In this document: positions 14,048-18,193 of the stretch, in pieces
How the letters are laid out: each line of letters opens with the position of its first letter
Numbering within the stretch: position 1 is the first letter of the stretch
Source of the DNA: Candidatus Cloacimonadota bacterium
GTDB taxonomy: Bacteria > Cloacimonadota > Cloacimonadia > Cloacimonadales > JAMOQM01
Reading direction: 5' to 3'
Assembly (NCBI GenBank): GCA_027064005.1
Contig: JAMOQM010000010.1
Coordinates: 1-32,138 of the forward strand
DNA: 32,138 nt
Notes under the pieces: model-generated
Databases searched by the model: none
Told to the model about the DNA's origin: nothing
The model's input: the letters and a program-made list of their open reading frames with translations, nothing else
Translations under genes and position numbers: made by a program

Positions 14048-14461
14048 TTAAAAGCTTTTAAATATTCTAGCTTGAGAATTTCCGGGAGCTTGAATATCCA
14101 AATCTAAAAAATATCCAAAAGGGGTTTGAAATACTTCAAATTCCGAATTTTTCAATCTTTCTTCAGCTTTATTAAAAATTTCTTTGCTGAAATTAGGATT
14201 AGCTTTACTTTCCGAAAGATGAGCAAAAGAATGCAACACTACTTTTTTGGTAGAATTCTTTTTTGAAGCCCATTTGATATTTTTAATCAACTTTGTTACG
14301 GTTTTCCCGGAATCGTTTTCGTCGTTTTCCTCAGCTTGAATAAACGCAACTAAAGCGTTTTTTATAGATTTATCCTCATTTATTTCAGGAAAATCATCTA
14401 AAGTTTTGGTTGTCGTTTTATAGCGAAAGCTGTCGGCATAAATCATTAATAATTTCATCAT
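14048..14461 (-). CDS. free-standing archaeal-type threonyl-tRNA synthetase editing domain
   Basis: A 137-residue protein that matches the N-terminal editing domain of archaeal ThrRS over its whole length. It has the opening strand MKLLMIYADSF, then ALVAFIQAE, FAHLSESKANP (H81) and TPFGYFLDLDI near the end. In archaea this domain, related in fold to D-aminoacyl-tRNA deacylases, removes serine from mischarged tRNA-Thr. Bacterial ThrRS normally uses a different editing domain, so a separate archaeal-type copy is unusual. The archaeal FGYYK lysine is leucine here (L119), and the later KGHPLAE segment is PGNSQAR, so the known catalytic residues seem lost. The second ATG (14458) is better spaced from AAGGAAAG. 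It is the last gene of a minus-strand cluster. Confidence 0.8.
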   Translation of the reverse strand: MMKLLMIYADSFRYKTTTKTLDDFPEINEDKSIKNALVAFIQAEENDENDSGKTVTKLIKNIKWASKKNSTKKVVLHSFAHLSESKANPNFSKEIFNKAEERLKNSEFEVFQTPFGYFLDLDIQAPGNSQARIFKSF

Positions 14462-14468
14462 CTTTCCT

Positions 14469-14500
14469 TAATCTTAAATATTTAGGTAAATTTAAGATTA
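14469..14500. repeat. 11-bp inverted repeat between the two minus-strand genes
   Basis: TAATCTTAAAT (14469-14479) and ATTTAAGATTA (14490-14500) pair perfectly around a 10-base loop that contains the stop codon of the upstream gene. On the minus strand the hairpin lies directly before the ribosome site of the editing-domain gene. No T-run follows, so it is not a standard terminator. It could stabilise an mRNA end or tune downstream translation. Confidence 0.6.
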
Positions 14501-16284
14501 TTTATTTTAAATTTGAATTTGGATAATTTTTCTTTTTGTACTTCTAACTCATTCAAAATTTGTGTTTTAGAATCTTCAAAAAATCCTTTTAGATTTGAAA
14601 ATAAATCCAAATAATATTCAGTTCCTTTTTCTAAATTTTCAATGAAATTCAAATAATATTTAATTTCTTTATCAGTTAAATTATCTTGAACTTCTTCAAA
14701 TTTCTTACTTAGATAATTATAATAAATATCCAATTCTTTCACAAACATATTTGGACGGTCATTTCGCGATATTACATTAATTCTACCATAAATATGATCT
14801 ACCATTTCTTTAAGGGTCATCCGATGAGAAAAATACGCTATATTTGGTCCCGGACAAACCGACACACCTCGTCCTTCCGATCCTGTATCTATATTATTTG
14901 TAATCAAAGAAGAAGTTCCCAATCCAACGCAAATACAAGATTTCTCCACAATTTTATCAAATTGTTTTTGATATTCTTCCGGAGCGAGATTTTTTTGTTT
15001 CAATTGCTTTATTTTCAGACTTTGATATTGTCTGGAAGCTGTACACATCCCTCTGTCCGAGAATTCCCTATCTAATCCGACATATTTTTTAGGACAATTA
15101 CTGCCCGGATTCCCAATTTCGATTTGATGTCTTTTTTCAATATCTTTTGAATTATTTTTCAAACTGTTAAAAGGTACGCCGAGAGGAGAAATATTACTGA
15201 GACACAAATCATTTTCTTTGGCACTTTCCAATTTTTCCAAAGTATCTTCATCAATATTAACCACTTCAGGCACCAACAAAAAAGGTGTCCCCCAACCAAC
15301 CGAGTCAACCTTATAATGATCAAGTAAAAAATTATGCTCTTCGGAAGTTCCAACACCACCTTGAGCAGTTATTTTCATTGGTAATTCAGTATCCGGAACG
15401 GCTTTTTCTTTTTTAGCCAAACCTTTATCAAAAATTGATTTCAGGTAAGATTTTAATTCATTTTTTTTATCTTTAAATTCTGAGAGAATCGGACCTAAAA
15501 GATGACCGTCAGAAGCAAAAGCATGACCACCGCAATTTAATCCCGATTCAACTCTAAATTCCGAAACCCAAAGTCCTTTTTTAGCAAGAATCTTACCTTG
15601 AATTAAAGCTGAGCGATAATCACTTACTTTCAATACAATTTTCTTTTTTAACTCACCAAATTTATTGGGATAAAAATCTTCAAAATTTTCTAAATATTTG
15701 TAAAGATGAGAATTTAATCCCGCCGAAAAGATTATTGATGAATTCAAATCGCTGGTGGCAAATCCTCTTAAAGCGGAATGGGCATCATTAATTTCAGGTG
15801 ACAACTTACCATTTTCATCATAATGTTCTCTGTCCACTTTTGTCATAATATTAACATCGATACTGCCCATAGACAATTTGTCTTTTATCCAATTAGAAAT
15901 TTCTGATAAATCGAGTTTGGTTTTAATATTTTCAAATTCTTGTTTTAAAGTAGAATTTTCAGGCAATAAACTTAAATATTCCTTTATTCCCGAAGCTTTT
16001 TCCAAAGTAGTATTTTTCAAATCTTCAAATTTTTCTTCAGCTAATTTATTAATTAAATTCAAATAAGATTTGACTCTCTTAGCTCGAAAATCTTCTATTT
16101 TTTCTGAAATTTCTTCGTATTTAATTTTGTACTTATTACAATACATTTTTCTGATTTTCTCCATTAAAATGTCATCAACCATTGAAATAGCGGAGCTAAT
16201 TCCAAAAGGTGCGACTTTAATAGGAGTATCAATTGTAAATCCAATTCCCATTACCGGAATATGGAATGAATGTGTTTTACACAT
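14482..16284 (-). CDS. conserved-looking protein of unknown function with many cysteines
   Basis: About 600 residues, soluble, not assigned to a named family. The preferred start is ATG 16284 (MCKTHSFHIP), which has AGGTGA just upstream. ATG 16305 (7 residues longer) has no ribosome site. Glycine-rich motifs resembling TIM-barrel flavoenzymes are visible: TPIKVAPFGISS near the start, and AQGGVGTSEEHNFLLDHYKVDSVGWGTPF in the middle (about 314-342 of the longer form). Cysteines cluster in the second half (GSNCPKKY, GMCTAS, SCICVGLG, VSVCPGP; C404, C421, C457, C459, C484 of the longer form) and could bind a metal or Fe-S cluster. The ends are helical and charged. It lies between the MIP18-type gene and the editing-domain gene. 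Function is not inferable beyond a possible redox or metal role. Confidence 0.8.
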   Translation of the reverse strand: MCKTHSFHIPVMGIGFTIDTPIKVAPFGISSAISMVDDILMEKIRKMYCNKYKIKYEEISEKIEDFRAKRVKSYLNLINKLAEEKFEDLKNTTLEKASGIKEYLSLLPENSTLKQEFENIKTKLDLSEISNWIKDKLSMGSIDVNIMTKVDREHYDENGKLSPEINDAHSALRGFATSDLNSSIIFSAGLNSHLYKYLENFEDFYPNKFGELKKKIVLKVSDYRSALIQGKILAKKGLWVSEFRVESGLNCGGHAFASDGHLLGPILSEFKDKKNELKSYLKSIFDKGLAKKEKAVPDTELPMKITAQGGVGTSEEHNFLLDHYKVDSVGWGTPFLLVPEVVNIDEDTLEKLESAKENDLCLSNISPLGVPFNSLKNNSKDIEKRHQIEIGNPGSNCPKKYVGLDREFSDRGMCTASRQYQSLKIKQLKQKNLAPEEYQKQFDKIVEKSCICVGLGTSSLITNNIDTGSEGRGVSVCPGPNIAYFSHRMTLKEMVDHIYGRINVISRNDRPNMFVKELDIYYNYLSKKFEEVQDNLTDKEIKYYLNFIENLEKGTEYYLDLFSNLKGFFEDSKTQILNELEVQKEKLSKFKFKINNLKFT

Positions 16285-16308
16285 ATGTTCACCTATTTTT
16301 TTCATAGC

Positions 16309-16802: not shown

Positions 16803-17075
16803 TTATTTTTTTTTAGCAATAATCTTTAAAACAGGTGCAAATAATTTTGCGAAAACTGATTTTGACCAAGCTATTCCTTGCGGTCCTGCCAAGAAAACAC
16901 CTAATCCTAACATTGCCCAACTTAATCCGTATATGGCAAATCCAATATAAGAATAGGTAGAATTATGATATTTAAAAGCGATTGAGTTAAAAAAAACCAT
17001 TCCACCCCATCCAATAGGTTGATTAATAACCAAGAGAATACAACCGATAATAAATTTTGTTCTGGATTTTTTCAT
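16803..17075 (-). CDS. small two-helix membrane protein
   Basis: A 90-residue protein starting at ATG 17075, whose first base is shared with the stop codon of the preceding histidine-kinase gene (TAATG). This implies coupled translation. A TTG 18 bases upstream would add MVASRI but would lie inside that gene. Two hydrophobic helices are visible, about 10-30 and 41-66, the second ending GVFLAGPQGIAW, with basic residues at both ends (MKKSRTK and IAKKK). No family is recognised. Being fused translationally to a soluble sensor kinase, it may recruit or modulate that kinase at the membrane, but only position supports this. Confidence 0.7.
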   Translation of the reverse strand: MKKSRTKFIIGCILLVINQPIGWGGMVFFNSIAFKYHNSTYSYIGFAIYGLSWAMLGLGVFLAGPQGIAWSKSVFAKLFAPVLKIIAKKK

Positions 17076-18193
17076 TATTCTTGAGGCAACCAAATATCAA
17101 ATTGAGCACCATGATCTTCTTTATTTTTCACAGTAATTGTCCCATTATGGTCTGAAATTATTTTTTTCACAATAGCCAATCCTAAACCGGTACCTCCTGA
17201 TTTTCCCATCGTTACAAACGCTTCAAATAATTGGTCAATTATCTTTTCGGGAATCCCTGGTCCATCATCTGAAATAACAAAATGAAGTTTCCCGTTTTCA
17301 ATTGATGCTGTAAAATAAATAGTACCTTGAAATTTCAATGCTTCTAAGGAATTTTTAATCAAATTAATAATAACTCTCTTAATTTTCTTCTCATCAAATT
17401 TGATCTTAGTTCCCGAATCAATTTCATTTTTTGTTATTACTTTAATATCTCTATCATCAGCCATTGGCATAGAATTGTCTAAAATATCAGTATAAAATTC
17501 ATCAAAATTAATATTGTCCTTCACAATACTACTTTGTTCACCTCTGGCAAATTCTAAGATCTCTCTGACCATTCCGTCCAAAGTTTTAGTTTGTTTGATA
17601 ATTTTGTCAGCTGAAATTGCTGTCTGCGGAAAAGCATCTTTTATCATTTGAGCAGTTAATACAATTATAGTTATAGGAGTTTTAATATCGTGAACAATCT
17701 TGCTGGCAGCAGTACCAATTGCCGCAAGTTTATTTTTTCTTAAAAGTGTGTCCCACGTTTTAACATAACGTTCATTAGTTTCTCTCAATCTGGAGGAAAT
17801 CTTCTTAGTTAATATTAACAAAATATTCGGGTTTTGCATACAAAGATCCAGAAAATCACTTTTTAAGAATTTGAGCAATTTACAATCTGTAAGACATAAA
17901 GCGGAAGCTGACCTTCCCTGTTCTTCAATCAAAGCCATTTCACCAAAATAATCATTACTCGTTAATTCCATAAGCCCCGTTTCATGATCATTTGCTTCTA
18001 TATTAATAATCTTCGTTATAGATACTTTTCCCTCAATAATAATATAAAAACTATCCCCTATTTCATTTTCACGAAAAATATATTTGCCTTTCTTAAATAA
18101 GACAACTTTTGCAATATTATTAAGTTTGGTTAAATATTCAGAAGATAATTCTTCAAACAAATCAACTTTTACTAATATATTTTGGTAAGTCAT
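17075..18193 (-). CDS. soluble histidine kinase with N-terminal cyclic-nucleotide-binding domain
   Basis: A 372-residue protein without membrane segments. The cNMP-binding/CRP-like domain spans about 10-130, with a phosphate-binding cassette FGEMALIEEQGRSASA (83-98) that keeps Arg94. A short linker is followed by a HisKA dimerisation helix with phospho-acceptor His168 (KIVHDIKTPIT). The HATPase domain has N-box NLIKNSLEAL, G1 DDGPGIPE and G2 GGTGLGLAIVKK. It should autophosphorylate on His168 in response to a ligand of the cNMP-type domain and pass phosphate to an unidentified response regulator; none is in the window. A strong GGAGG precedes the ATG. A TTGACA at 18245-18240 on the minus strand may be its -35. 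It is divergent from fur. Confidence 0.92.
   Translation of the reverse strand: MTYQNILVKVDLFEELSSEYLTKLNNIAKVVLFKKGKYIFRENEIGDSFYIIIEGKVSITKIINIEANDHETGLMELTSNDYFGEMALIEEQGRSASALCLTDCKLLKFLKSDFLDLCMQNPNILLILTKKISSRLRETNERYVKTWDTLLRKNKLAAIGTAASKIVHDIKTPITIIVLTAQMIKDAFPQTAISADKIIKQTKTLDGMVREILEFARGEQSSIVKDNINFDEFYTDILDNSMPMADDRDIKVITKNEIDSGTKIKFDEKKIKRVIINLIKNSLEALKFQGTIYFTASIENGKLHFVISDDGPGIPEKIIDQLFEAFVTMGKSGGTGLGLAIVKKIISDHNGTITVKNKEDHGAQFDIWLPQE

Follow-up and report, generated by a model that had tools for sequence, protein, structure and literature searches.

The window analysed here, a 32,138-nucleotide stretch of a 'Candidatus Cloacimonadota' genome, encodes a small free-standing protein related to the editing domain of archaeal ThrRS. 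Judged from its sequence, the protein belongs to PF08915 as an intact, free-standing bacterial member, and its active site is altered in a way that recurs throughout the bacterial family. On the combined evidence of sequence and predicted structure we lean toward an active, trans-acting aminoacyl-tRNA deacylase with a shifted specificity, probably toward tRNAs carrying U73.

Gene, family and predicted fold

The first-pass annotation of this DNA described a 137-residue open reading frame. The frame exists, but its coding strand is the minus strand (stops are abundant on the plus strand in this interval), and translation probably starts at the second methionine (14458), giving 136 amino acids. 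This start is favoured because the M-K-L-L beginning of the relatives falls there and because it is better spaced from AAGGAAAG (Table 1). The gene is single-copy in the source genome, which was scored 100% complete. It has other genes on both sides, and it is fused neither to ThrRS nor to an anticodon-binding domain.

Table 1. Features of the window that bear on the editing-domain gene
Feature	Position	Strand	Remarks
Editing-domain gene	14048..14461	(-)	PF08915 E=1.1e-41; AF2 pLDDT 93.2; Foldseek TM 0.94 to P. abyssi NTD
Ribosome-binding-like AAGGAAAG	14462..14469	(-)	immediately 5' of the start codons; from sequence
His81 codon	14219..14221	(-)	equals P. abyssi His83; invariant, 55/55
Leu119 codon	14105..14107	(-)	replaces P. 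abyssi Lys121; Leu in 50/54 relatives
Arg132 codon	14066..14068	(-)	replaces P. abyssi Glu134; Arg in 52/54 relatives, Lys in 2
607-aa gene	14482-16305	(-)	20 bp upstream of the editing-domain gene, between it and the MIP18-like gene
MIP18-like (FeS_assembly_P) gene, 97 aa	16385..16678	(-)	PF01883 6.9e-6; 55-57% identity to phylum cluster copies

A search with the PF08915 profile (archaeal ThrRS editing domain), proposed earlier as a check, gave a significant match over the full length (E=1.1e-41), with profile positions 1-136 of 137 covering residues 2-136 at 142.6 bits; the curated cut-off is 30.2 bits. The only convincing sequence matches in the PDB are the editing domains of P. abyssi, M. 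jannaschii and A. pernix, and these are found at E=1e-25 when the family profile serves as the query. The AlphaFold2 model, built from a 49-sequence input, has a pLDDT of 93.2. Foldseek places P. abyssi editing-domain entries at the top (TM 0.92-0.94, 1.5-1.8 Å), followed by M. jannaschii, A. pernix and then Plasmodium DTD (E about 1e-7). Overlaid on the P. abyssi domain, as had also been suggested, the model gives TM 0.94 at 1.6 Å, and its fold is DTD-like, as in DTD and ATD. The earlier description of a free-standing archaeal-type ThrRS editing domain in a bacterium is thus borne out by both the full-length profile match and the fold. The DTD profile (PF02580) does not match the protein, and the relation to DTD rests on fold, since sequence-profile comparison by hhalign gave a probability of 2%.

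A literature search for PF08915 by accession or name returned no papers. Stand-alone tRNA-Thr-ED beside archaeal SepCysS and bacterial SepRS-fused ED have already been described (PMC5424206, PMC8762117), so that both stand-alone and bacterial cases were known before the present protein. It resembles the archaeal examples in being a small stand-alone protein and the SepRS fusions in having a bacterial host. However, SepCysS (TIGR02539) exceeds the cut-off in none of the 125 source-phylum genomes, which show weak partial hits only, and a SepCysS partnership was rejected on this ground; the SepRS-fused domains reportedly keep the serine recognition motif completely (PMC5424206, PMC8762117). The crenarchaeal ThrRS-ed, or Ser-tRNA(Thr) hydrolase (NCBIfam NF011500), is likewise a trans-acting editing domain, and its N-terminal 123 positions are matched. 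The score is 55 bits, where the cut-off is 362, and the window protein differs in having no anticodon-binding domain and in its altered site.

Active-site residues

The C-terminal third of the protein aligns with the P. abyssi domain without gaps. Compared with the archaeal ThrRS editing domains (P. abyssi 1Y2Q/2HL1, M. jannaschii 4RRF, A. pernix 4RR6), which are matched over the full length at TM about 0.9, the Phe-Ala-His motif (Phe81, Ala82 and His83 of P. abyssi, the last being His81 here) and PFGY are retained. The unfused window protein differs from them in four replacements: Lys121 by Leu119, Glu134 by Arg132, Tyr120 by Phe118 and Pro80 by Ser78. The alignment confirms the change of Lys to Leu119 and the retained His81 that were noticed at first reading. 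The reported change of Glu to Arg is also real, although it falls at residue 132 and not 131. The gap-free C-terminal alignment does not show the catalytic Lys and Glu at shifted positions.

Both lost residues had been taken to be important for Ser-tRNA(Thr) hydrolysis. This holds for Lys121, which positions the catalytic water; in three archaeal enzymes K121M, or the equivalent change, severely impairs activity because this water moves (PMC4491819). It does not hold for Glu134, which is dispensable in vitro, as Y120A, E134A and their double mutant retain activity and specificity (PMC4491819). The H83A enzyme is inactive in P. abyssi, while the same change leaves moderate activity in A. pernix, and Met occurs naturally in DTD at the Lys121 position (PMC4491819). 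Since K121M compromises the archaeal enzymes, yet DTD works with Met, Leu119 speaks against efficient Ser-tRNA(Thr) editing but not against deacylation itself. A change of the K121M type might also merely lower activity.

The bacterial family

In a set of 55 bacterial sequences, the family signature consists of Leu at the Lys121 position (50/54) and Arg at the Glu134 position (52/54). His77, His81, Leu82, Gly127, Trp64 and Lys63 are invariant, or nearly so, where covered. Because this collection was gathered with peptide patterns derived from the window protein, the signature was rechecked in copies found by PF08915 alone. It is present in all 16 such copies (15 genomes) of the source phylum and in four of six new copies from the phylum of an Aminicenantes-labelled locus (the phylum of G128); in the other two, the Lys position is occupied by Asn or Tyr. 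Lys itself occurs at this position in 0/22 profile-found bacterial copies. Values of dN/dS for close pairs are mostly 0.03-0.13, indicating purifying selection; higher values were obtained for L014/L016 (0.21) and for pairs that include the N-terminally altered L054 (0.29-0.43). Genome G121 holds two divergent copies, L054 (= L080:7973-8368) and L056 (= L081), of which the one with the altered N-terminus and dN/dS of 0.29-0.43 against its kin is sirtuin-linked. Another divergent copy, L103:4034-4576 (-), from a genome in the phylum of G128, has PFGWFNTLEIKAKGHPLSR and stands midway between the archaeal and bacterial signatures.

The distribution of the family is patchy. The PF08915 cut-off is exceeded in 15 of 125 source-phylum genomes, the editing-domain gene is carried by 7 of 247 genomes in the phylum of G128, and the sample of 396 Bacteroidota genomes holds two carriers, both already known, and no new one. 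Sunxiuqinia dokdonensis is an example of a carrier in culture. A weak PF08915 hit in G291 (L109) lies within a 246-aa protein of unrelated look and was rejected as a family member. Searches of phages, plasmids and viral contigs found no relatives, and a phage or plasmid origin was therefore dropped. In the tree, the window protein groups with two copies from the same order (support 99/96), both of which retain genes of the cluster described below. The sole archaeal sequence, that of P. abyssi, sits on a very long branch; the family could have arisen either by transfer from archaea or by an older split.

Translation background of the source genome

One alternative to a shifted specificity is that the archaeal job has been kept, and that the protein backs up ThrRS by clearing serine from tRNA-Thr in trans. 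Family and fold are shared with the archaeal domain, the tRNA-Thr of the source genome has the archaeal-type U73, and the archaeal activity needs neither Glu134 nor Tyr120. However, the ThrRS of the source genome, in contrast to the archaeal system, is complete and of bacterial type and itself carries a tRNA_SAD editing domain, so plain Ser-tRNA(Thr) editing by the stand-alone protein would be redundant. The severe effect of the Lys121-to-Met change in three archaeal enzymes and the lack of Lys in every profile-found bacterial copy also tell against such a backup, which we regard as unlikely.

A second alternative, that the protein stands in for DTD by clearing tRNAs of D-amino acids or glycine, draws on the source genome (G000), where no PF02580 match was found by profile search even though the assembly was scored 100% complete. 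In addition, Leu at the Lys position is a hydrophobic residue akin to the Met of DTD. However, DTD coexists with the editing domain in 14/14 other carriers of the source phylum, on which ground DTD replacement was rejected as a general rule. The Gly-cisPro motif of DTD, which rejects L-amino acids, is also missing. Gly127, placed against DTD by eye via the shared FG motif, is followed by Asn here and by Lys, Tyr, Phe, Ile and others in the relatives. This role seems improbable.

The discriminator bases of the source genome bear on the substrate. Among 33 distinct tRNAs read in this one genome (40 matches, 10 of them not read as loci of their own), U73 is limited to tRNA-Thr (3/3), tRNA-Gly (3/3) and tRNA-Cys (1/1). 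The editing domains of archaea seem to depend on U73, whereas bacterial DTD needs a purine at position 73 (PMC11295145). Together these observations suggest that the family may cover U73 tRNAs. The relatives' loci, in which tRNA-Thr was sought for an association between gene presence and N73, contain none.

Genomic context

In 12 loci of the source phylum a CobB-like sirtuin gene starts at the stop of the editing-domain gene (gaps of -1 to 5 bp, mostly 0), and in three Bacteroidota loci it lies 11-48 bp downstream. Across these 15 loci the upstream gene varies while the sirtuin is constant. Genes that recur around the relatives encode an MFS transporter, a class I methyltransferase, a FadH/OYE-type flavoenzyme, Nitro_FeMo-Co proteins, MinD/ParA ATPases with ferredoxin domains, a MIP18-like protein, a radical SAM protein, an aminotransferase and a C1-like peptidase. 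Five loci (L067, L071, L074, L075 and L076) share a cluster of DUF1684, C1-like peptidase, MIP18, MFS, methyltransferase, Nitro_FeMo-Co, OYE/FadH-type flavoenzyme, editing domain, sirtuin, aminotransferase, UDG and M24 peptidase. This cluster makes up no evident single pathway and is partly common to Bacteroidota L013 and L028.

In the window, the MIP18-like gene is, by its similarity to the cluster copies, a remnant of this neighbourhood and the sole one left. It is preceded at 16803-18193 (-) by a histidine kinase gene with an N-terminal cyclic-nucleotide-binding domain, which overlaps a gene for a small membrane-like protein. The 607-aa gene matches no Pfam family, and the model of its product (pLDDT 75) resembles FabX/FabK/nitronate-monooxygenase flavoenzymes (E about 1e-9). 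It occurs in 0/124 other phylum genomes and in 143/396 sampled Bacteroidota genomes, with up to 64% identity; it was therefore probably acquired horizontally and was rejected as a functional partner.

The constant sirtuin raises the question of whether the substrate could be a non-tRNA ribose ester, such as the O-acyl-ADP-ribose produced by the neighbouring enzyme. The tight spacing in the 15 loci and the ability of the DTD-like fold to cleave esters on a ribose hydroxyl would fit such a role. However, a profile search of the source genome found no sirtuin, and most loci outside the phylum have none adjoining. Moreover, the ester of O-acyl-ADP-ribose does not sit on the adenosine ribose, and this is the part at which the DTD-like fold binds its substrate. 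We therefore consider this explanation more doubtful still than a substitute for DTD.

Decay into an inactive remnant, proposed at first reading on the strength of the replaced Lys121 and Glu134, is very improbable, because the changed residues are fixed across the family in several phyla, His77, His81, Gly127, Trp64 and Lys63 are (nearly) invariant, the codons are under purifying selection and the model shows an undamaged fold; nor does anything point to decay of the window copy itself. The consistency of the change suggests a working enzyme with another target rather than a broken one, and re-purposing for another substrate, the other option then put forward, is plausible.

Proposed function

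What the analysis establishes is homology, predicted fold, family-fixed residues, purifying selection, the redundancy with ThrRS and the set of U73 tRNAs; the catalysis, dimerisation and substrate of the proposed deacylase we infer. Counted in favour of a tRNA deacylase is the gene directly upstream in a few relatives: a CCA-adding tRNA nucleotidyltransferase in three Calditrichota loci (L021:4622-6004, where the genes overlap, L029:4622-6004 and L034:3992-5380) and ArfB in one Bacteroidota locus. Against it, the neighbours are mostly non-translation genes (sirtuin, MFS, methyltransferase, flavoenzyme, Fe-S/metal proteins).

The DTD-like fold has been described as an RNA-assisted catalyst that uses the A76 2'-OH (PMC4880308). 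By this scheme, the bacterial deacylase would act as a dimer in which mainly the protein backbone contacts the 3'-terminal adenosine of the aminoacylated tRNA, and the A76 2'-OH would activate a water molecule for cleavage of the aminoacyl ester. As Leu occupies the place of the water-positioning Lys and Arg that of the cross-subunit Glu, the substrate has probably moved away from plain Ser-tRNA(Thr). The likeliest substrates would be wrongly charged U73 tRNAs (tRNA-Thr, -Gly and -Cys here), which bacterial DTD handles poorly. A more far-reaching proposal, which we hold only tentatively, is that the family forms a distinct bacterial class of DTD-fold deacylases with a Leu/Arg site, either a counterpart of DTD for U73 tRNAs or acting on a ribose ester that derives from the sirtuin, and that it belongs to a conserved sirtuin and Fe-S/redox neighbourhood.

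Published accounts divide the DTD-like fold by domain of life (PMC4880308, PMC5802732), assigning DTD to bacteria and eukaryotes and the ThrRS editing domain to archaea. In the present family, DTD and a ThrRS-type editing domain occur together in bacteria, and the active site of the latter has been altered and then maintained. Because the exchanged Lys is the published water-positioner, the family amounts to a natural experiment on catalysis and selection by this fold. It also suggests a testable answer to how mischarged U73 tRNAs, which bacterial DTD disfavours, may be cleared.
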